Shown here piece by piece: positions 325-21,367 of a DNA stretch of 64,000 nt (position 1 is the stretch's first letter; every line of letters starts with the position of its first letter). Origin of the DNA: Ruminococcus sp. (GTDB lineage Bacteria > Bacillota > Clostridia > Oscillospirales > Ruminococcaceae); the NCBI GenBank assembly GCA_017542125.1, contig JAFXXU010000031.1, positions 1 to 64,000 of the forward strand, given 5' to 3'. The position numbers and the translations under genes were made by a program. The notes beneath the pieces are model-generated. The model saw only the letters and a list, made by a program, of their open reading frames with translations. It made no database searches and was not told the DNA's origin.

Positions 325-948
325 TCACAGTTTTGAACGGATAGCCAGCAATCTGCCGCTTTTGAAGCCGATCTCGGCAATACCATCAGATACAGAATTG
401 GATACCCCGAGAGGAAATCCGGAGCTGAGTTCAACATCCTCGGCCTCATATTTCGCGCCGTGTACAGTCAGCCCCTCAACCTTATCGGAAAAAGCAAAGA
501 GTGAAAGCGTCATGCCCTCGGCAGCGGGATAAAAGTATTCTCCCCTGTCAAGGAGCTCTATCCTCTCGTTATCGGAGACGATAACTCCCTGGGCACCGTG
601 ATCGAGCAGATAAGCCAGTGACTGTATAGCAGCATAGGTATGATCCAGCCGTCCGCCGGTAGCACCATAGATCACAAAGCTGTCGCAGCCCCTTGCAAGA
701 CCCTCTTTTACCGCCAGCATCAGATCGGTGTCGTCCTTTTCCACGGGATAGACCTTGACATTTTTAAACTGCGGCTTCTCGGCAGAGTCAAAATCCCCGA
801 TGATGAGATCGAGGCTTATCCCCAGCCTTTGGGCAAGGAGATATCCGCTGTCGGCGGCAATATTGATATGCTCATCGGTATGGTCAAGTGAAACAGTCCC
901 GGAGGAGACCGGGTCACCGCCGCAAAAGATCGCACATTTACCGCTCAT
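325..948 (-). CDS. thiN: Thiamine pyrophosphokinase
   Basis: The 207-residue protein converts thiamine plus ATP to thiamine diphosphate and AMP in the cytosol. The family motifs are visible: the early AADSG, GDFDS near residue 50, the acidic KDDTDLMLA stretch near residue 70, and GATGGRLDH near residue 95. The C-terminal half is the beta-rich substrate-binding domain. Its start overlaps the rsgA stop by 11 bases, so the two are translationally coupled. The B. subtilis order is rsgA-rpe-thiN-spoVM; rpe is absent here. No thiamine riboswitch precedes it, which fits a kinase for salvaged thiamine carried within a housekeeping operon. Confidence 0.93.
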   Translation of the reverse strand: MSGKCAIFCGGDPVSSGTVSLDHTDEHINIAADSGYLLAQRLGISLDLIIGDFDSAEKPQFKNVKVYPVEKDDTDLMLAVKEGLARGCDSFVIYGATGGRLDHTYAAIQSLAYLLDHGAQGVIVSDNERIELLDRGEYFYPAAEGMTLSLFAFSDKVEGLTVHGAKYEAEDVELSSGFPLGVSNSVSDGIAEIGFKSGRLLAIRSKL

Positions 949-8598: not shown

Positions 8599-11073
8599 TC
8601 AAAGCCCGATGTCGCCGTTGATATCGGCATAAATGCTTACCTGCCTGAACTCGGTGATCTTGTAGAAGCGAAGCAGCACCGACGAGATCATCTTTCGGAA
8701 CTCGGCATCATTGCGGCATTTGAGTATCAATCTGTATCTGTATTTATTGTTTATCCTGCCGAGGGTACAAGGCGCGGGGCCTATGGCTCTGATAAACATT
8801 TTTATCTTGTTCGGTATAACATAGCTGTTGATGTATACGCCCAGCTCACGGGCGAACCAATCCGAGGCTTCTATAGCCTTGCTCTCCATTGCCGCCGAGA
8901 ACCCGATAACGCATATATCGCAGAAGGGAGGGTAGATCAGCGACTGCCTCAGAGCAATCTCCTCACTGTAAAACTCATCGTAATCTTGCTTTGCTGCCAG
9001 GTTCAGCACGAAATGATCGGGAACAAAGGTCTGTAAGCAGGCGGATCCGGGCTTATCGCCTCTGCCGCTTCTGCCGGCGACCTGTGTCAGCAGCGAGAAC
9101 GTCCGCTCATAGCTCCTGAAATCCCCGGTAAACAGCGCCTTGTCAAGCGAGACAACGCCCACAAGAGTCACATTCGGGAAATTGAGCCCCTTGGCGATCA
9201 TCTGGGTGCCAAGCATTATATCATACTTGCCCTTCTCAAAATCATTGAAGCCCTGCTCATATGAATAGCGGGAGAAAGTGGTATCGGCATCCATACGGAG
9301 AACTCTTGCATCCGGGAATTCCGCAGCCAGCTCATCCTCCACCCTCTGGGTCCCGACACCGCTGTTATAAAGGCGATCGGAGCCGCACTCGGGGCATACG
9401 CTGACATTGTCCATGGAGAAGCCGCAGTAGTGGCACATCAGCTTGTTATTCTTTTTATGGTATGTAAGCGGGAGCGCACAGTTGGGGCAGCTCACCGGCT
9501 TCCGGCATTCAAGGCAGGAGATATAAGTGTGAAATCCTCTGCGGTTCAGAAGCAGGATAGCCTGCTCCTTCTTGTCGAGGGCCTCTCGGAGCTTTTCACG
9601 CAGCCTGGTGCTGAAAAGCTTCCCGCCCTCATAAGCCATATCTATGATCTCAACCTCCGGGAGCACCGCATCGGCATAGCGCTTGCGCAGCTCAAAGAGG
9701 TGGAACCTGCCCTTCTTAGCATAGTAAAATGTCTCCAGCGACGGCGTGGCGGATGCCATGACCAGCACGGCATTGTGATATCCGCAGCGCTGGATAGCCA
9801 CATCTCTGGCATGATAGCGGGGTGAACTTTCGGATTTGTAGGTGTGCTCGCCCTCCTCATCGATGATTATGACACCGATATCGGAAAGCGGGGCAAACAC
9901 AGCGCTCCTTGTACCTATGACTATCCTTGCATCGCCGGAGCGTATCCGCTTGAACTCATCATTTCGCTGACCCAGCGACAGCGAGGAATGGAGCACCGCT
10001 ATCCTGTTGCCGAAATATTTCTTGAACCTGCGCAGCATCTGCGGCGTAAGAGATATCTCCGGCACCAGCATAAGCGCGGTCTTGCCCAGCTTAAGCACGC
10101 TGTCGATGATACGGAAGAACACAGCGGTCTTTCCGCTGCCGGTAACTCCGTAAAGCAGCGAACCGGCAGGCTTGCCTTCGTTGATAAGAGACATTATGCC
10201 CTCATAGGCATTTGTCTGCTCATCATTGAGCTCAATGCTCTCCGGCGGGAGCTGCTCGGTGATCTCACCTATGGCATCCCGCAGGACGGTATTCTCAAAC
10301 TCGGTAATGACCTTATTCTTTTTCATACGGGTGAGGATAGCATCGGTGCAGCTGGTCATATATCTGACCTCTTTTGCAGCGGCGCATCCGCACTCCGTGA
10401 GCAGATCGACAATGCTTTTCTGCTTGGGAGTGAGCTTCGGTTCGGTCTTAGTACCCGCAGACGAGAGGTACTCATCGGAGAGGCGGAGCATCTTGACGCT
10501 CTCGTCCCCCACACGCCTTTTGAGCTGATCCTCCTGCTCCACATATCCCTTGTCGATCAGCGAGGCAAGTATGCCTTTGAGCTTGGGCTGCGCAGAAAGA
10601 TCCAGAAACTCGTCTATCTCTTTCTGGGAGCAGGCCTGTCTCATAAAACTGAGCACTCTTAGCTCCTGCTCGCTTAGCTCGCTCTCATTTACGGGGACAT
10701 TAGCGGGAACATATCTGCTGGAGAACTTATACCCGAAGCCCGAGGGAACGATGCTTCTGAACGCATCGAAATAGGTGCAGAAGGTATTCTCCTTGAGCCA
10801 GAATATGAGCCGGAGCATTTCCTCGTTTATAAGGGGCTCCTCGTCTGCAAGCTGCATCAGAGGCTTTACGGCATCATCAGGCTCGGGGATGGTCTTTAGC
10901 CTTGTAACAAGGCCTATGATCCTCCTGTTGCCGTTGCCGAAGGGGACGATAACTCTCATACCCGGCTTTATCCGGCTTCTCAGAGCCTCCGGAACGGAAT
11001 AACTGTATTCGCTGTCAAAGCTGTAAGCCGCAGCCGAGACCGCGACCTTTGCAATCAGAAAATCACTTCGCAC
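8599..11073 (-). CDS. priA: Primosomal replication-restart helicase PriA
   Basis: PriA is a 3'-5' DNA helicase that recognises stalled forks and reloads the replisome. The 824-residue protein has an N-terminal fork-binding domain, a Walker A (GVTGSGKTAVF near residue 308), a DEEG-type Walker B (IIDEEGEHTYK) and paired zinc-binding cysteine clusters (CLECRKPVSCPNC, then CHYCG and CPECGS) near residues 515-555. A C-terminal helicase lobe with QVAGRSGRG follows. In B. subtilis coaBC lies between rpoZ and priA; it is missing here, leaving a 21-base gap to rpoZ. Confidence 0.96.
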   Translation of the reverse strand: MRSDFLIAKVAVSAAAYSFDSEYSYSVPEALRSRIKPGMRVIVPFGNGNRRIIGLVTRLKTIPEPDDAVKPLMQLADEEPLINEEMLRLIFWLKENTFCTYFDAFRSIVPSGFGYKFSSRYVPANVPVNESELSEQELRVLSFMRQACSQKEIDEFLDLSAQPKLKGILASLIDKGYVEQEDQLKRRVGDESVKMLRLSDEYLSSAGTKTEPKLTPKQKSIVDLLTECGCAAAKEVRYMTSCTDAILTRMKKNKVITEFENTVLRDAIGEITEQLPPESIELNDEQTNAYEGIMSLINEGKPAGSLLYGVTGSGKTAVFFRIIDSVLKLGKTALMLVPEISLTPQMLRRFKKYFGNRIAVLHSSLSLGQRNDEFKRIRSGDARIVIGTRSAVFAPLSDIGVIIIDEEGEHTYKSESSPRYHARDVAIQRCGYHNAVLVMASATPSLETFYYAKKGRFHLFELRKRYADAVLPEVEIIDMAYEGGKLFSTRLREKLREALDKKEQAILLLNRRGFHTYISCLECRKPVSCPNCALPLTYHKKNNKLMCHYCGFSMDNVSVCPECGSDRLYNSGVGTQRVEDELAAEFPDARVLRMDADTTFSRYSYEQGFNDFEKGKYDIMLGTQMIAKGLNFPNVTLVGVVSLDKALFTGDFRSYERTFSLLTQVAGRSGRGDKPGSACLQTFVPDHFVLNLAAKQDYDEFYSEEIALRQSLIYPPFCDICVIGFSAAMESKAIEASDWFARELGVYINSYVIPNKIKMFIRAIGPAPCTLGRINNKYRYRLILKCRNDAEFRKMISSVLLRFYKITEFRQVSIYADINGDIGL

Positions 11074-14563: not shown

Positions 14564-14598
14564 AACACCCGCAGGCATAACGTCTGCGGGTGTTTTTT
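14564..14598 (+). terminator. Terminator after the HD-domain gene
   Basis: A perfect 11-base stem (14564-14574 with 14584-14594) is followed by T6. The convergent ECF gene ends at 14597, so the hairpin probably serves both strands. Confidence 0.85.
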
Positions 14599-17161
14599 AC
14601 TCAAAGAAACCGTATTTGACCCTGAGCCTTTCCATTTTTTTCAGCACAGCCGGAGCAAGCATGAACAGGAAGCCCAGTGATGCCGCACCGTGGATAAGGT
14701 CAAGGGGAAGCCCGGCTGCGTATGCAGCGGTCAATGACTCACGGTTGATCTCGTTGTGCATAATGAAAAGAGTTGAAGGATTCACTATTCCTCCGTAGAT
14801 GACTACGGCAGCAAAGAATCCGAACAAAGCGATTATCTCTCGTCTGCGGGGCAGTATCCCTCTCCCGAAGATCACCCCGGAGATCAGACCCACCAGCCCC
14901 ATTGAAAACATCTGCCAGGGGGTCCAGGGACCCTGCCCGAACATAAAGTTTGAGATCAGCATTGAGAAGGAGCCTACGATGAACCCCGCCTCACCTCCGA
15001 AGGAAGCACCTGCTATCACCACCACCGCAAGCACAGGCTTGAACTGGGGCAGCATATAGAAAGCTGCTCTGCCCGCCACGGCAGCCGCGATCATTACTGC
15101 TATCGCCGTCAGCTCACGGGCTTTCGGCTTTCTGCCCTCAAACATAAGATAAAAGGGCAATGACGCCTCCAGCATCACCACCAGAGAGACAAACAGGTAT
15201 TTGCCCGTGTTCATACAGGTGGCTCCGAACCAAACTGTAAAGGGTATCAGCAGCAGCATTACTGCCGAAGCAGCAGCCGAAAACACCGTCGGCTTACTGC
15301 GTTTACGCGGCTTTCCGTCAACGGTTCTCCCGTCCGAGAAGGAGAAGGCGATCATCACTGCCGAGGCAGCGAGCAGATAGTAGGGTATCATCTTGTTTTT
15401 ATCAAACATCTTTGGGATGATCTCCATACATCCCGCCGCCGATAACAACAGCATCAGCACCGAGAGCAGCTTAACACCTATTCTCAGCCTTGAGTGCTTG
15501 GCATCGTTCTCCTTTTTTGGGGGCAGGGCTGGTCGTTGATCGTCATTATGTCTTATCTCCGGTTTAACAGGCTTACTGCCGAGAGCTTTTATAAGATCAT
15601 CCGCTGTAACGGCTCCGTCAGCGATACCCTTTGACATTCTTGCAGCTGCGGTGGTGTAGAACATATTCTCGGTAAAGAACCTGTAAGAGTCGTCAAAGCC
15701 GATCAGACTCCCGCCGAACAGCATCGCGCACCTGTCGGCAAATTCAGCAGCAAATTCCACATCGTGAGTAACGGTGATGACTGTGACACCCCTGCTGCAA
15801 AGCTCCCGGATTAAGCAGCCCAGCCTGTATTTGAAAACAGCATCGATGCCCTTGGTAGGCTCATCAAGCAGCAGGATATCCGGCTCTGTGAGCAGCAGCT
15901 TGGCAAAGGCCGCACGCTGCAGCTCACCTCCCGAAAGATCGTAGGGATGCTTCTCTGTCAGATCATTCAGCTCGCAGAGGTTCAGTACCTCGGCGATACG
16001 GTCTTCGTCCTCGATGATATCCAGCATATCGTCGTAAAGTCTGTCGCAGACGAACAACGAGGCAGGCTCCTGCGGCATCATAACTGATTTCTTCCAGAAC
16101 AGCTCCACACTTCCTGACAAGGGCATCTTCAGCCCGCAAATGACCGAGAGCAGCGTACTCTTTCCGGAACCGTTTCCTCCGAGGATACACAGCGATGAGC
16201 CCTTGTTCACCTCAAAGGAAAGCCCGTCCAGTACATTCTTGGCGTTCTTTGAATACCTGAATGTGATGTTTTTCAGCTTAACGGCTTTTTCTCCCGAAAG
16301 CGGAGAAGGCTTGTGCTCTATCCGAGATAACGTGCTCTCCTCTGCCCTGTGGGAGAGCCATTCTCTCCCCTCGGAAACGCTTACGGGGCAGCTGCCCTCT
16401 CCCTTGCAGGCGAGCCAAACCCTTACCGGCACAGGCAGCATATGGTAAAGCTCACCCGTAAGCAGCTCGCTTCTGAGCTCCGAGGGCGTGGTATCCAGCA
16501 CTATCCTGCCCTTGTCAAGACATATCAGCCTGTCCGCTTTTGGGAGGACTTCTTCCAGCCTGTGTTCGGTAACTATCACCGTCGTTCCGAGCTCACGGTT
16601 GATGCGCTTGACAGCATCAAAGAATTCTTTGGCGGCTATGGGGTCGAGCCTCGCCGAGGGCTCATCGAGAAGCATGAGCTCAGGACGGGTCGTCATAGCG
16701 GAAGCCAGGGAAAGCAGCTGCTTCTGACCGCCGGAAAGTTCGGCGGTCGGCTTTTCAAGGCTGTCGGTCATCCCGAAGAATTCTGACATCTCCGCCGTCC
16801 TGCGGCGGATGGTCCCGTTATCGGCACTCAGGCTTTCAAGGCTGAATGCCAGCTCGTGCCACACCTTATCGGTGACGATCATACTCTCCGGGTCCTGCCC
16901 GACAAAGCCTATCAGCTCCGCAGCCTCCCGCTCGGTCAGCTCCGAGGAGCTCTTTGAAAATAGCAGAACGTTCCCTTTACTGATACCCTTCGGGGCAAGG
17001 GTCGGCTTGAGCTGACGCAGCAGAGTGCTTTTTCCGCTTCCCGATGCTCCGCAGATGAGAACCAGCTCGCCTCTGCTGACGGACAGATCTATCCCGTCCA
17101 AGGCAGGAGCATCGCTGCCGGGATATGTAAAGCTCAGTTTTTCAAGTCTGACGATCTCCAT
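14597..17161 (-). CDS. ECF transporter fusion: two ATPase domains plus S-component-like membrane domain
   Basis: This 854-residue protein joins three parts normally encoded separately. Residues about 1-225 form one ABC ATPase with CGASGSGKST, LSGGQKQ and DEPSARLD. Residues about 290-500 form a second ATPase with GGNGSGKST, LSGGELQRAAFAK and DEPTKGID. Residues about 575-850 hold roughly nine hydrophobic helices; the last six resemble an ECF S-component, the substrate-binding membrane unit. ATG 17161 is chosen because GGGAGG lies seven bases upstream; the frame opens at 17203, inside ecfT. It overlaps ecfT by 28 bases. Linked DUF4430 proteins and a cobalamin-type riboswitch suggest a corrinoid substrate (inference). 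Confidence 0.85.
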   Translation of the reverse strand: MEIVRLEKLSFTYPGSDAPALDGIDLSVSRGELVLICGASGSGKSTLLRQLKPTLAPKGISKGNVLLFSKSSSELTEREAAELIGFVGQDPESMIVTDKVWHELAFSLESLSADNGTIRRRTAEMSEFFGMTDSLEKPTAELSGGQKQLLSLASAMTTRPELMLLDEPSARLDPIAAKEFFDAVKRINRELGTTVIVTEHRLEEVLPKADRLICLDKGRIVLDTTPSELRSELLTGELYHMLPVPVRVWLACKGEGSCPVSVSEGREWLSHRAEESTLSRIEHKPSPLSGEKAVKLKNITFRYSKNAKNVLDGLSFEVNKGSSLCILGGNGSGKSTLLSVICGLKMPLSGSVELFWKKSVMMPQEPASLFVCDRLYDDMLDIIEDEDRIAEVLNLCELNDLTEKHPYDLSGGELQRAAFAKLLLTEPDILLLDEPTKGIDAVFKYRLGCLIRELCSRGVTVITVTHDVEFAAEFADRCAMLFGGSLIGFDDSYRFFTENMFYTTAAARMSKGIADGAVTADDLIKALGSKPVKPEIRHNDDQRPALPPKKENDAKHSRLRIGVKLLSVLMLLLSAAGCMEIIPKMFDKNKMIPYYLLAASAVMIAFSFSDGRTVDGKPRKRSKPTVFSAAASAVMLLLIPFTVWFGATCMNTGKYLFVSLVVMLEASLPFYLMFEGRKPKARELTAIAVMIAAAVAGRAAFYMLPQFKPVLAVVVIAGASFGGEAGFIVGSFSMLISNFMFGQGPWTPWQMFSMGLVGLISGVIFGRGILPRRREIIALFGFFAAVVIYGGIVNPSTLFIMHNEINRESLTAAYAAGLPLDLIHGAASLGFLFMLAPAVLKKMERLRVKYGFFE

Positions 17162-18024
17162 TTCAGATCCTCCCATATCCCGTAGAATGTCGGCAGAAAA
17201 CAAAGCAGCCCGAAAGCCGCGATCTCTGCCGCCGCACCTATCCCGAACTCAGAAATATATATCTTCGGATAAAAACGAAACTCCGAAAAGCCTACGAACA
17301 GTCCCGCAAGGCTTATCCCGCCGAAGAGCAGAGTCAGAGCTATAACTGCCGCATCCTTTACTCCGAACCGGAAAAGGTCGTAAGCCGTCCTGTGCGGGAG
17401 CCCGTAGCCCCGGCTTTTCATTGAGTCAGCTGTCTCAACAGAGCTTTCCAACGACCGGGATATCAGTATCGAAAACACCGAAGCCAGGTTTTTAAGGCGC
17501 TGCTTCAAACTGCCCTGCCTTATACCCTTGCCGAGCTGACGCCGTGAATCGGCTATCTCCCGAAACCTGGTGATAAACAACGGTAAGAACCGAAGCGTCA
17601 TTGAGAGCACCAGCGTAAGCGAGGGGAAAGCCTTGCCCGTCAGGCAAATGAGCTTGTCAGACGAGAACACCTTCCCGAAGCAAAAGCACCATACTATCAC
17701 AGCGCTCACCATAACTCCCGATGCTGCACCGTAGATCAACGCCTCCAGCGTCAAAGCATTGCCTGTGGGGAAGTATGCCAGTATCACCGTACCGCGGTGA
17801 TTGAAAAGCACATTTATCAGCGCAGCTATCAGAGCCGGGATAAGCAGCAGCTTCCAATGGCGGAATATCTCCCTTCCCGAAAGCCTCACGGCGAAGCAGA
17901 GGGCTCCGATAAAAGAGAGCACAATAAAGCAGGGGTGCATCGTAAATGCACCCGTGATCAGCAATATAAGAAAATATAACGCAATGCTTACAGGATGAAG
18001 CCTTTCAAATGCGTCTCTGACCAT
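17134..18024 (-). CDS. ecfT: ECF transporter transmembrane subunit EcfT
   Basis: The 296-residue CbiQ/EcfT-family membrane protein couples the ATPases to the S-component. Five or six hydrophobic helices occupy the N-terminal two thirds. The coupling-helix region near residues 190-210 contains SILISRSLESSVETADSMKSRGYG, whose ARS-like and SRGYG motifs contact the ATPases. It lies two bases after the small DUF4430 gene and overlaps the ATPase fusion, so stoichiometric production is likely. Confidence 0.9.
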   Translation of the reverse strand: MVRDAFERLHPVSIALYFLILLITGAFTMHPCFIVLSFIGALCFAVRLSGREIFRHWKLLLIPALIAALINVLFNHRGTVILAYFPTGNALTLEALIYGAASGVMVSAVIVWCFCFGKVFSSDKLICLTGKAFPSLTLVLSMTLRFLPLFITRFREIADSRRQLGKGIRQGSLKQRLKNLASVFSILISRSLESSVETADSMKSRGYGLPHRTAYDLFRFGVKDAAVIALTLLFGGISLAGLFVGFSEFRFYPKIYISEFGIGAAAEIAAFGLLCFLPTFYGIWEDLKWRSSDLKN

Positions 18025-18026
18025 AA

Positions 18027-18821
18027 CTAACCTGCCTTAGTGAAATAATCGTCCCCTACATCGACACCGATATTGCAGGAATAGACTACCTCTATAACGT
18101 CGCCGCTCTTTACAGTAACCTGAGAGGTGCTTAGCTGCGGGAACTTACCGTTAACCGAATACATCCACCCCGACAGATTGCCTGCATCGAACTCATAAAG
18201 ATTTGCTATGCCCTCGATATACCGGTTATTGGTCATAGCTATATTCGAGCTTTCCATCGGAATACCGTTTTTGCGGCAGATCTCTGAGATAAGATCAAAC
18301 ACAGTCTCACCCTCTCTGATCTCTACCTCGCTGCGGGGGAAAATGATACCGTCCTTAGGAATGACGTCTATCACTCCTGCGCGGAGCTTGTCCAGATTGT
18401 CGAATACTGTGGCGCAGGAGATCATAAATGTGCAGGTCTCAGCCTTGACAGGCGGCTCCGTGACCTTTTCCGTGGTCGTTACCGTCTCTGTACGGGTGAC
18501 GGTCTCGGTCTGTGTTGCCTTTTGCTCGGATACAGAGGTCTGAGTTTCCGGCGGAGCAGTTTCGGTCGGCACAGATGTTTCTGAGGGCGCCTCAGTAACG
18601 GCAGACGTATCCGGAGGGGCAGTAACGCTCTCCGGAACAGTCTGCTCTGTCAGGGGTATTGACGTAACAACAGCCGTTAAAGTGACCGTAGTTGTCTGTG
18701 TTGTTTCAGGAGTCTTATCGGAAGTAACATCGCTGCCCGAAAAGTATGCAGCCGTCAGCGCACCGGCGATAATGACTACCGCCAGCGCAGACTTTATCAG
18801 CTTTTTGAGCTTCTCGGACAT
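18027..18821 (-). CDS. Membrane-anchored DUF4430 (transcobalamin C-terminal-like) protein
   Basis: The 264-residue protein has a short basic N-terminus and one hydrophobic segment (about 9-28), then a Thr/Pro/Glu/Val-rich linker of about 100 residues that would span the wall. The C-terminal 125 residues match the DUF4430 pattern: ETVFDLISEICRKNG, a central GWMYSVNGKFP and the closing VKSGDVIEVVYS. DUF4430 shares its fold with the beta domain of transcobalamin and intrinsic factor, where it covers one face of vitamin B12. No lipobox is visible, so the hydrophobic segment probably stays as an anchor. Ligand capture close to the ECF transporter is my inference. Confidence 0.82.
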   Translation of the reverse strand: MSEKLKKLIKSALAVVIIAGALTAAYFSGSDVTSDKTPETTQTTTVTLTAVVTSIPLTEQTVPESVTAPPDTSAVTEAPSETSVPTETAPPETQTSVSEQKATQTETVTRTETVTTTEKVTEPPVKAETCTFMISCATVFDNLDKLRAGVIDVIPKDGIIFPRSEVEIREGETVFDLISEICRKNGIPMESSNIAMTNNRYIEGIANLYEFDAGNLSGWMYSVNGKFPQLSTSQVTVKSGDVIEVVYSCNIGVDVGDDYFTKAG

Positions 18822-18840
18822 AGGATGCCTCCGTTATTAC

Positions 18841-20739
18841 TTATTTTCTCTTTCTGCTTGCTGCAGCTGCTGCTCCGGCAAGAAGTATCATTACCATACC
18901 TGCTGCCGCACCTGTAGGAGGATTGGAGCCCTCTTCCTCGGTGTAAGGAACCAGCTTATCAGCAGTGAAATCATATATAGCAGACATATTGTTGGTGAGC
19001 CTGTAATAAGAGGTCAGCGCCAGGAATGCCTGCTCTGTGGACATCGAATCAGCTGTGCCGCCCTTAAGATGTGCGAACTCGCCGCTGCCGAGATAGTATG
19101 CAGCTATGCCGTCCATAAGCGAAACGCCGTTCTTAATGAAGCGCTCATCCTCGGCACCGTTGATGCCTGCGGAGGAAAGAGCGATCATTACCTGTGCGGT
19201 AGACTCACAGTTGCCGTAGGAACCGTCCTCGCCCTGCTTGGAGGAGAGCCATTCAACAGCCTTTGCAACAGCATCGGCAGTCGACTCATCTCCGGCAAGT
19301 GCGGTGATGCACATAGCAGTGATATCAACGTCCTCGGTCTGACCGTCAAAGGAGAATGCGCCGCTTTCGAGCTGTGCATCAAGAAGGTCGGCAGTATGTA
19401 CTCCCTCGGCGCCTACTCCGGTAAGAGCGATATTAGCCCAGATGTCACCGGTTATGCCCTGGATGGATGTGAAGTCCTCATCCTTTACAGCCGTGAGCAT
19501 ATCGGTTCCTGCATACTTAGTGGGGTCATAGCCCAGAGCAGCCGCAGCAACGGACTCCTTTGAGTTCTCGGTAGAACGTCTGTCGTTGAGCTTGCCGTCC
19601 TTGGCGGTCTTTGCATATTCGGCAAGAGCCTTGGCGAATGCAGCCTTGCTCTTTTCGGAGAGCTTGCCTGCTCTTGCAAGGCCTATCATTTTCCACTCCG
19701 CACCGATGGCGGGTTCTGTCTCGGAAAGCTTCTCGGCAGTTTCCTCAAACATCTTGTTGAAGGAAGCGTCTACTTCTTTCTTTTTCAGCTCTTTGAGCTT
19801 TGCAACAGCCGCTTCCAGAACATCGGCGTTGCCTACGAGCTGCTTCTGAGTATCGTTCAGCCTGAGATAAGCGGTCTCAGCATCGGTGACAGTCTTCTCA
19901 TTCTCGAGAGTTACCTCTCCGATAGCGTCGATCAGTTCTTCGACTTCCTTTGCAGCAACGAGAGCATCACCGGTGATATCCGAAACAATATTCAGAGTAT
20001 AAACGGTCTCGGTCTGGCCGTAGTTCGTCGAAGGCCATGCGGGATCTCCGCAGCCGATTATGAGCTTATCGCCGTCTACTACTTCAATAGCATCGCCCCG
20101 TCTGTAATCAGCCGAGGACTCAGGAGCGTATTCATTCTTGTATGTTCTTACCTGGAAATTCTTGTTCAAAGCTGTGGGCAGAACGCTTACCTCGGAAACA
20201 CCTGAAAGGGTGAGAGTGTACTCTGTCACCTCGGGGGAGAACTCCTTGTCAAGAGTACCGGCCGAAACAGTAAGAGCTGAAAGCGAGGTATCGGTGCCGA
20301 GCCAGTCGCTGCCTATATCGGAGCCCCAGTCCAGAGTGTACTGAACGTCGATGACATCTCCTGCGGTAACGCCGCCGTTGGCAACGGTATAACTTGAAGC
20401 GACCTCCGTAGTGAACCAATCGTTGAGGGTCAGCATCCAGGAGCCGTTCAGGTCAGCAACGGTGTCAAAACCGCCCCAGGAAGACAGTTCATATGTCTTG
20501 CCCTCAGCAGTAAGCGCATCGCAGACTACGGTGAGCATATCGGAGTCTGCCTTGAGGGGCACCTCTGTTTCGATAAGCACGCCCGACCAGGCTGCACCCT
20601 TATCCTTTGACAGTGTGTTGTTTTCCACGATGACCTTAACGGTCGCCGCCTCTGTGTCGGCAGCAAAAGCAGCAGCGGGCAGTACGCCCAATGCCAGCAG
20701 AGCTGCAGCCGATACCGAGATGATTCTTTTTGCGATCAT
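18841..20739 (-). CDS. Wall-anchored DUF4430 plus alpha-toroid (transcobalamin-like) surface protein
   Basis: The 632-residue protein has a signal peptide (1-26), a DUF4430 domain (about 30-150, containing GSWMLTLNDWF), a cadherin-like beta domain (about 155-255, opening LSALTVSAGTLDKEFSPEV), a helical FIVAR-like linker (about 260-330) and a C-terminal alpha-alpha barrel (about 335-600) with squalene-cyclase-like repeats such as QGEDGSYG. The end is NPPTG followed by a hydrophobic helix and RKRK, a sortase-type signal of the NPxTG kind. Animal transcobalamin and intrinsic factor combine the same two folds, barrel first and beta domain second; here the order is reversed. I infer corrinoid capture at the cell surface. 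The gene overlaps its upstream neighbour by four bases (ATGA). Confidence 0.82.
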   Translation of the reverse strand: MIAKRIISVSAAALLALGVLPAAAFAADTEAATVKVIVENNTLSKDKGAAWSGVLIETEVPLKADSDMLTVVCDALTAEGKTYELSSWGGFDTVADLNGSWMLTLNDWFTTEVASSYTVANGGVTAGDVIDVQYTLDWGSDIGSDWLGTDTSLSALTVSAGTLDKEFSPEVTEYTLTLSGVSEVSVLPTALNKNFQVRTYKNEYAPESSADYRRGDAIEVVDGDKLIIGCGDPAWPSTNYGQTETVYTLNIVSDITGDALVAAKEVEELIDAIGEVTLENEKTVTDAETAYLRLNDTQKQLVGNADVLEAAVAKLKELKKKEVDASFNKMFEETAEKLSETEPAIGAEWKMIGLARAGKLSEKSKAAFAKALAEYAKTAKDGKLNDRRSTENSKESVAAAALGYDPTKYAGTDMLTAVKDEDFTSIQGITGDIWANIALTGVGAEGVHTADLLDAQLESGAFSFDGQTEDVDITAMCITALAGDESTADAVAKAVEWLSSKQGEDGSYGNCESTAQVMIALSSAGINGAEDERFIKNGVSLMDGIAAYYLGSGEFAHLKGGTADSMSTEQAFLALTSYYRLTNNMSAIYDFTADKLVPYTEEEGSNPPTGAAAGMVMILLAGAAAAASRKRK

Positions 20740-21008
20740 GATTCTTCCTCCGTCTTTAAAGATTTTTTCAGGAGCTTTCTACGTTCTGCCGCACGCCTGC
20801 GCTTCTGCTTGCTGAGCAATGCCGCAGGAGGCTTTACCGCCTCTTTGAGACCTGCCTTTTCAAGCGCCCTGGGAAAAGGCCCCAGCTTCTGCTTGATAAA
20901 GCAGACTTCTTCAGGAGTAAAATCGCTGCGCTTGGGCAGCCTCCCCAGCTCTGCCTGCTTGCTTATAAGGAGTGTGAGCGCGCGCTTAAGCTTGTCATCT
21001 TCAGCCAC
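20736..21008 (-). CDS. Small basic protein with an HNH-repeat-like motif
   Basis: This 90-residue protein is the first gene behind the riboswitch. It starts with GTG after a GGGGGGAT ribosome site. The middle (LGRLPKRSDFTPEEV to ALEKAGLKE) resembles the homing-endonuclease-associated helical repeat found in small DNA-binding proteins, though only one copy is present and no nuclease motif is seen. The C-terminal third is very basic (KQKRRRAAERRK). It overlaps the surface-protein start by four bases. Function unknown; a regulator of the operon or an RNA/DNA-binding protein is possible. Confidence 0.65.
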   Translation of the reverse strand: MAEDDKLKRALTLLISKQAELGRLPKRSDFTPEEVCFIKQKLGPFPRALEKAGLKEAVKPPAALLSKQKRRRAAERRKLLKKSLKTEEES

Positions 21009-21042
21009 GGCTTATCCCCCCTCTACAGACATTCGGCACAAC

Positions 21043-21070
21043 AAAAAAGCTCCCTCCGTCCCAAACGGAG
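21043..21070 (-). terminator. Terminator between cobalamin riboswitch and first gene
   Basis: A 6-base stem with a 5-base loop (21054-21070) is followed on the minus strand by GGAG and then six T. It lies 35 bases before the GTG of the 90-residue protein and after the aptamer, which suits transcription attenuation by the riboswitch. The stem alone is modest, and GGAG adjoining it may extend it. Confidence 0.6.
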
Positions 21071-21221
21071 AAAGCACAGCAAAACAAACCGTATCGCCTG
21101 CATTTGTTTTTGGGTACAGCAAAGCTGAGCCCTGCAAATTCATCGGGCAAAACAGTTTATTGGCTGCACTTCTTCTTGTCCAAGACGGCGATACCGTTCA
21201 AGCCCGTTTAAAAGACGGACC

Positions 21222-21320
21222 AAGCCTGCGGGAGTATTCTGACTTTGACAGTAATGACAGTTGTGACGGGATCCCACCGCGCTTCCCAATTACAGACCCT
21301 TTCGGGACGACCGCAGACTT
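21222..21320 (-). promoter_or_regulatory. Cobalamin (short AdoCbl-type) riboswitch
   Basis: Read on the minus strand, the element contains GGGAAGCGCGGTG, then ACAACTGTCATTACTGT and the AGTCAGAATACTC box, all close to conserved segments of B12-sensing aptamers. The outer P1 stem is present: AAGTCTGCGG at the 5' end pairs with CCGCAGGCTT at the 3' end, with one G-U pair. It lacks the long P7-P10 insert of the classic class, so I place it with the compact variants. It lies 18 bases after the promoter -10 box, upstream of the ECF/DUF4430 operon, with a terminator downstream. Cobalamin would be expected to reduce expression. Confidence 0.82.
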
Positions 21321-21338
21321 ATATTCGGTTGTACTTTC

Positions 21339-21367
21339 AGTATATTACAGATTTCGTCAATTGTCAA
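21339..21367 (-). promoter_or_regulatory. Promoter of the cobalamin riboswitch and ECF operon
   Basis: A consensus TTGACA (21362-21367) and TATACT (21339-21344) are 17 bases apart. The -35 box begins inside the U-tract of the upstream GH3 terminator, so the two units are packed without spacer. Confidence 0.8.

Follow-up and report, generated by a model that had tools for sequence, protein, structure and literature searches.

The animal carriers of vitamin B12 are built from an alpha toroid and then a beta domain. DUF4430 has been reported at the C-terminus of vertebrate transcobalamin (TCN) in the part of PMC4350170 that deals with it. A likewise B12-related setting is described for DUF4430 proteins of Lactobacillales, whose gene lies beside rtpR, the gene of the B12-dependent ribonucleotide reductase; a table of that paper lists an 'Additional lipoprotein component of putative cobalamin ECF transporter' (PMC9963975; ECF, energy-coupling factor). 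Among solved bacterial importers, ECF-CbrT of Lactobacillus delbrueckii (PDB 6FNP) combines EcfA, EcfA' and EcfT with the S component CbrT, and the sections of PMC5997447 on binding give CbrT a dissociation constant of about 9 nM for cobalamin and 36 nM for cobinamide. Here we describe an operon in 64,000 nucleotides of DNA from Ruminococcus sp. (assembly GCA_017542125.1, contig JAFXXU010000031.1, positions 1-64,000; the window) that is very probably a dedicated corrinoid (vitamin B12) acquisition system, placed under a cobalamin riboswitch that would act by attenuation, and pairing capture at the cell surface with CbrT-type ECF import.

Like ECF-CbrT, the window encodes EcfA, EcfA', EcfT and a related S component. 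It differs in that, here and in the closest relatives, both ATPases and the S domain form one chain with an EcfT of its own, in that the S domain has an extra N-terminal hydrophobic stretch, and in that a riboswitch and a pair of large proteins outside the cell belong to the operon; CbrT, as far as its description goes, is encoded in an nrdJ-cbrS-cbrT-pduO cluster and draws on an ECF module shared with others. With BtuCDF and its binding protein BtuF the system would have in common capture outside the cytoplasm followed by ATP-driven import, carried out by unrelated proteins. As in vertebrate transcobalamin, intrinsic factor and haptocorrin, the toroid precedes DUF4430 in those relatives that have both fused in one chain. 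The vertebrate carriers are soluble, however, whereas the proteins of the window are predicted to be anchored in membrane and wall, with a DUF4430-like domain before the toroid, a second DUF4430 protein encoded separately, a toroid that stays under the PF01122 cut-off and corrinoid binding that is putative. The Lactobacillales case differs too: the passages of PMC9963975 on those proteins speak of neither a toroid nor a wall anchor nor an HNH gene.

Results

The operon runs along the minus strand from 21367 to 14597 (all window positions below are on that strand), where a promoter is followed by a cobalamin aptamer, a terminator and five closely packed genes. A sequence-only reading, made from the letters without database searches, had described a cobalamin-riboswitch operon with surface proteins and a fused ECF transporter. 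That observation is confirmed, and every gene that it listed (a 90-residue protein, a DUF4430/toroid protein, a second DUF4430 protein, EcfT and an ATPase-ATPase-membrane fusion) has been identified; the interpretation that it attached to them is partly supported. The promoter that it saw is of sigma-70 type, TTGACA-17-TATACT at 21339-21367, and matches 11 of 12 consensus positions. The description of the operon as overlapping was nearly right: it holds for two gene pairs (overlaps of 4 and 28 bases) and not for two others, which are separated by short gaps (19 and 2 bases). The closest named relative of the locus (L004; loci are numbered with L and genomes with G) lies in a metagenome genome of Ruminococcus sp. 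that was obtained from sheep rumen.

By Pfam the operon encodes all the components of a complete ECF transporter: two ATPases, EcfT and an S component. EcfT, a transmembrane coupling subunit of CbiQ type (PF02361), has 296 residues and lies at 17134-18024. The EcfA-EcfA'-S fusion (14597-17161) has 854 residues counted from the ATG at 17161; the programs were given 14597-17164, one codon more, and a longer frame starts at TTG 17203. Its last 221 residues, the CbrT-like S domain at 14597-15262, match ECF S families. When a profile of the S domains of 23 relatives was compared with the PDB, CbrT (6fnp_A) was found at E 1.5e-20, with the next ECF chain (4hzu_S) at 1.1e-3, and the S domain of the window by itself found CbrT at E 4.7e-6. 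This kinship is the strongest single evidence on the substrate, and with CbrT as its closest solved relative the domain is a well-supported prediction of a CbrT-type cobalamin S component, in line with the ECF import of corrinoid that had been proposed from the letters. The extra hydrophobic stretch, about 50 residues long, directly precedes the CbrT-like part; read by eye, it is common to the relatives and outside the CbrT match. Many other relatives encode S in a gene of its own. In the toroid operon at L054 the S gene is followed by a second EcfT-like gene (9351-10229), and BtuF-type binding proteins (Peripla_BP_2) occur elsewhere, behind a riboswitch of the present type at L205 and beside an HNH_repeat gene at L097.

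The leader holds a compact cobalamin riboswitch aptamer at 21213-21330, with the core GGGAA..GGTG..CC..CATTACTGT..AGTCAGAATAC and with the pairing P1 stem that the sequence-only reading had seen (10 bp, 21320-21311 with 21231-21222). Its Rfam match to RF01689 (AdoCbl-II) spans 21298-21223 and scores 23.4 bits, with an E of 0.0048 when 471 bases are searched. We aligned nine relatives that pass Rfam (alignment A6) into a model, R1, leaving out the window as well as L004 and L051, the relatives nearest to it; on the 64-kb window, R1 finds 21330-21213 with 52.3 bits (E 6.7e-10) as its sole match at E<=1. At the equivalent site the Rfam gathering cut-off is reached as RF00174 in the relatives L019, L023/L052, L024/L053 and L055, and gathering matches stand at that operon site in two genomes of the genus as well (G162 and G229). 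The aptamer core is largely invariant across 13 loci, the window included. Judged by these models the leader element is a cobalamin riboswitch, and the aptamer does score as one, in spite of its sub-threshold Rfam match, once its relatives are brought in. The surroundings of the leader also drew Rfam matches to PyrG, PyrR and miRNA families, which were sub-threshold and were discarded as chance.

Sixteen genomes of the genus yield 8 RF00174 matches at E<=0.001 in about 37 Mb, roughly 1 per 4.6 Mb as a lower bound, and 5 genomes have one over the cut-off. At that threshold the operon has the genome's only RF00174 match in G162, G229 and G282 (in the last below the Rfam cut-off), and no RF00174 match was found in G071 or in the window's own genome, G000. 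Searches of G000 with RF00174 and RF01689 miss the riboswitch of the window, so they are no measure of the absence of such variants.

Downstream of the 10-bp P1 the folded leader forms the intrinsic terminator expected from the letters, a 12-pair stem at 21075-21049. A strip 3' of the aptamer, RAAGYRCAGC, pairs at 10/10 bases with GYTGYGCTTT; in the window the strip GAAGTGCAGC (21163-21172) pairs with 21080-21071, and the terminator stem starts with the last five bases of this partner, the two together covering 21049-21080. The pattern used for the strip occurs in 11 of the 13 leaders examined, which include near relatives and are not independent, and is absent from those of L019 and L147. A full-length pairing partner is found in 10 of the 11, and an equally good one arises in 0 to 3.3% of shuffled versions of these ten leaders; the remaining leader, L008, pairs at 9/10 bases, which 8.3% of shuffles equal. 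The pairing is retained while the bases vary. Because it overlaps the terminator and is conserved, we infer transcription attenuation with an antiterminator: when cobalamin is scarce the strip would pair with the 5' side of the terminator, letting transcription continue, and when cobalamin is bound the terminator would form. Of the predicted control of expression by cobalamin binding, the sequence shows the terminator and the conserved pairing.

The B12 economy of the genome is consistent with import. MetH is present with its homocysteine methyltransferase, pterin-binding and B12-binding domains, and CbiD, BtuR/CobA and a PduO-type adenosyltransferase were not found in this genome (90.5% complete). 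MetH without CbiD or adenosyltransferases fits a B12-importing cell that may use methylcobalamin only, and the host Ruminococcus seems to need B12 and to be unable to make it. Class IIa riboswitches prefer methyl- or hydroxocobalamin according to the relevant part of PMC11477304; as neither of the adenosyltransferase families searched for turned up, our guess is that the compact aptamer probably senses one of these forms. Just past the end of the window a 646-codon frame gives a second match to a B12-binding domain, which is sub-threshold (22 bits; G000:C31:64386-64601, minus strand).

The two extracellular proteins follow the first gene. The 632-residue secreted protein (18841-20739) has a signal peptide, read by eye, a DUF4430-like domain at about residues 28-150, an alpha/alpha toroid at about 345-600 and a candidate NPPTG wall anchor, with a cadherin-like domain at 153-251 that stays below the cut-off. 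Its N-terminal domain is DUF4430-like by profile comparison (98.8%, E 6e-17) and is not among the Pfam matches. The NPPTG-helix-RKRK end scores 22.0 bits against the NCBIfam NPXTG anchor NF033846 (cut-off 23.5), and the relatives L051 and L052 have LPDTG and LPNTG sorting motifs plus the tail. The 264-residue DUF4430 protein (18027-18821; PF14478, E 4e-15) has an N-terminal membrane anchor, again read by eye. The surface location and the DUF4430 beta domains of the sequence-only reading are supported. By its profile matches the toroid belongs to the cyclase/prenyltransferase superfamily; searched against the PDB, the DUF4430 profiles gave nothing meaningful.

In 15 relatives (alignment A2) the toroid is followed by DUF4430 in one chain, and all 15 match PF14478 after the toroid; the window itself does not have this order in one chain. 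In the fused chains a pair of hydrophobic stretches flanking a basic loop connects the two domains, and for that reason we read both domains as lying outside. Because they are fused in these relatives, the view that toroid and DUF4430 are co-operating parts is supported. We propose that the wall-anchored toroid/DUF4430 protein and the membrane-anchored DUF4430 protein would together bind a corrinoid and hold it outside the membrane, and that it would then be handed over to the CbrT-related S domain of the importer, made of EcfT and the single-chain EcfA-EcfA'-S. Taken as a whole, corrinoid capture plus ECF import is a well-supported prediction.

Several other proteins came to light. A secreted protein of about 265-300 residues with a shared N-terminal pattern is encoded near the toroid operon in many relatives (L149:6863-7660, L152:6861-7673, L178:4154-4996, L204, L211); the idea that the variants of about 265-280 residues are a further DUF4430 protein was dropped, as two examples gave merely sub-threshold carboxypeptidase-regulatory matches. 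Vescimonas fastidiosa carries a giant DUF4430/toroid protein of 2200 residues on the 861-kb replicon pMM35_01 (L213 4705-11307), with no ECF genes annotated nearby. Lone toroid proteins of 319-329 residues at L108, L109 and L110 indicate that the toroid family has other settings too.

The arrangement recurs across the family. The 632-residue protein is matched (E<=1e-10) in 65 of 297 sampled family genomes, and neighbourhoods were taken for 35 toroid loci, 16 from genome contigs of sampled genomes and 19 others, with the duplicate contig L050 left out. A cobalamin riboswitch lies upstream on the same strand at 21 of the 35, at a distance of 18 to 5426 bases, and EcfT, EcfA and S are found on the same strand within 9 kb at 26 of the 31 loci with at least 3 kb downstream. 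The sequence-only reading had called for such a survey of co-occurrence and had named another vitamin's riboswitch before homologous operons as the result that would speak against it. Rfam scans at the gathering cut-off (34 of the 35 loci whole, L053 in part as L024) found cobalamin riboswitches and one tRNA, and no riboswitch of another vitamin.

The first gene of the operon (20736-21008), which the sequence-only reading had left without a name, encodes what is by profile an HNH_repeat protein: its 90 residues consist of a single HNH_repeat domain (PF18780; 31.4 bits against a gathering cut-off of 26) and a basic tail, and 26 of 26 aligned homologues match PF18780 at E<=0.01. The gene is present in 23 of the 297 family genomes, and all but one of the 23 loci (22) have a cobalamin riboswitch directly upstream. 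These linkages were established by Rfam gathering for L073-L076 and 14 of L077-L092, and for L070-L072 and L087 by a core pattern; a pattern nearly identical to it found nothing when 654,962 strand-bases of base-shuffled loci were scanned. At the exception, L082, no riboswitch was found, an apparent transposase fragment lies upstream and BtuF/BtuC-like genes lie downstream. More than one riboswitch may accompany the gene: two tandem cobalamin riboswitches precede it at L090 (654-792 and 874-1078, minus strand), and at L148 they stand before and after it (8238-8109 and 7676-7527, minus strand), L120 (2040-1912 and 1477-1330, minus strand) being the same place in the same genome.

The association extends to the order. 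HNH_repeat was found in 55 of 394 genomes of the order sample (57 matches). Neighbourhoods were taken for 40 of the 57 (3 of the remaining 17 belong to the family set), and a weak one, L182, has no open reading frame (ORF) for the HNH protein, which leaves 39 loci. At 35 of these R1 matches upstream on the same strand, from an overlap of 61 bases, due to long alternative starts, to 299 bases away; none of these loci went into R1, but it may favour this subtype, as eight of its nine sequences (all but L009) come from HNH loci. The Rfam gathering cut-off was passed at 17 of 20 order-search loci scanned. No R1 match was found upstream of the gene at L144, L168 and L172. At L175 (268-480, minus strand, and 672-872, plus strand) a cobalamin riboswitch is divergent from the HNH_repeat gene, and none was found on the strand of the DUF4430-ECF genes that follow.

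What lies downstream is mostly related to B12. By BLAST, toroid, DUF4430 or ECF genes occur within four downstream ORFs at 33 of the 39 order loci, and two further loci (L145, L162) lead into a DUF4430 protein by Pfam. The gene is followed by CobT, CobU and CobS at L168, and in the family set it stands before CbiD-first operons at L095 and L096. The downstream genes of L169, L172 and L174 could not be placed; at L172 a porphobilinogen synthase gene comes 2 kb on, and L174 ends. Conversely, an HNH_repeat gene lies downstream of 8 of 20 R1 riboswitches in 148 family genomes, where some loci stop at the end of a contig; behind riboswitches of R1 type it is thus a frequent but not a universal companion. 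With RF00174 matching about once per 4.6 Mb in the genus, chance adjacency is negligible, and the HNH_repeat protein regularly belongs to the B12 regulon.

Discussion

The riboswitch, the gene content, the kinship with CbrT, the conservation of the operon and the presence of MetH without CbiD all rest on computed results. Several results weigh against reading the whole as a corrinoid acquisition system. The aptamer of the window is itself under the Rfam gathering cut-off (23.4 against 36.5 bits); no riboswitch was found by the methods used at 14 of the 35 toroid loci, some of which lie at contig ends; and the full ECF set is not present at 5 of the 31. Four further toroid loci (L108, L109, L110 and L112) were found without a riboswitch or ECF genes, and a toroid of this kind alone therefore does not mean B12. 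CbiD was the sole biosynthesis marker sought, in a genome that is 90.5% complete, and the absences are accordingly not firm. Finally, the toroid scores 12.2 bits against PF01122, whose cut-off is 25, squalene-cyclase and prenyltransferase toroids score better, and none of the profiles found a chain of transcobalamin or intrinsic factor in the PDB. Among the 15 fused relatives, PF01122 is matched by 1 at E<=0.1 (E 0.017). The sequence-only reading had likened the toroid protein to transcobalamin; a specific kinship of the toroid with the alpha domain of transcobalamin is not supported by these scores. Since the PDB comparisons gave toroids of squalene-cyclase type, we make no claim of homology; we infer from the likeness in architecture that the toroid may work like transcobalamin.

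For the HNH_repeat gene there is a rival reading. Its only Pfam domain is a homing-endonuclease-associated repeat, the next gene at L093 encodes a xylose-isomerase-like protein and not a recognised B12 gene, and just 8 of 20 riboswitches in one sample have the gene behind them. It could thus be the leftover of a homing element that came to lie behind the riboswitch and has no role in B12. We think this rather unlikely: the short gene recurs across the order directly behind cobalamin riboswitches and before differing B12 genes, and decay would be expected of a remnant. Our best guess is a nucleic-acid-binding protein that would adjust the leader or the regulon.

The importer might also take up something B12-related other than B12 itself, such as cobinamide, a lower-ligand base or cobalt, which the extracellular proteins would bind likewise. 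EcfT matches the CbiQ cobalt family in Pfam (against NCBIfam CbiQ it reaches only 22.2 bits, with a cut-off of 111.8), cobinamide is also taken by CbrT in the binding data of PMC5997447, and in C. difficile, according to a passage of PMC11477304, a cobalamin riboswitch precedes a cobalt ECF operon. The S domain matches CbrT, however, and there is no CbiM-type cobalt family among its Pfam matches; with CbiD not found, imported cobalt would hardly serve corrin ring synthesis, and capture domains of such size at the surface would be unexpected if cobalt were the substrate. We regard such a substrate as unlikely. More improbable still is that the protein with the toroid acts as an enzyme or adhesin, a mere fellow traveller of the transporter: in the profile comparisons it comes closest to toroids of squalene-hopene cyclase and prenyltransferases, with weak matches to thioester proteins, and some toroid loci are without ECF genes or riboswitch, but it accompanies CbrT-like ECF genes in 26 of 31 loci, is fused in 15 relatives to DUF4430, the domain reported for the C-terminus of vertebrate transcobalamin (PMC4350170, in part), and has a signal peptide and a putative wall anchor; outside the cell, terpene cyclisation would not be expected.

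We conclude that the operon is a real, conserved and functionally coherent system, a cobalamin ECF importer variant with a transcobalamin-like surface capture device and a riboswitch companion gene. The nearness of DUF4430 to cobalamin ECF genes was partly anticipated in print. In the open-licence literature we found no description of a bacterial toroid-DUF4430-ECF system or of the HNH_repeat link, nor of the toroid clamp, the wall anchoring or the A-A'-S fusion with a riboswitch; judged by title and the start of the abstract, none of the open-licence papers that mention DUF4430 is on bacterial B12 capture, and PADLOC gave no match. Competition with the host's own B12 carrier, which the sequence-only reading had suggested for the gut, is an extrapolation, given that the closest named relative is from sheep rumen. 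It is possible, if somewhat doubtful, that we are looking both at a clostridial class of surface B12 scavengers, in which a clamp of toroid and DUF4430 feeds a CbrT-type ECF transporter and which would be an architectural counterpart, perhaps even an ancestor, of the animal carriers, and at a second, protein layer of B12 control, in which the HNH_repeat protein would bind nucleic acid and co-operate with the riboswitch.

The B12 transport systems of numerous human-gut genomes are called an open problem in a passage of PMC6593275, and for many Clostridia this operon is a concrete candidate for such a system. It also singles out a small protein, HNH_repeat, as a frequent companion of cobalamin riboswitches, and it allows a direct test of whether one kind of two-lobed clamp holds B12 in bacteria and animals alike.

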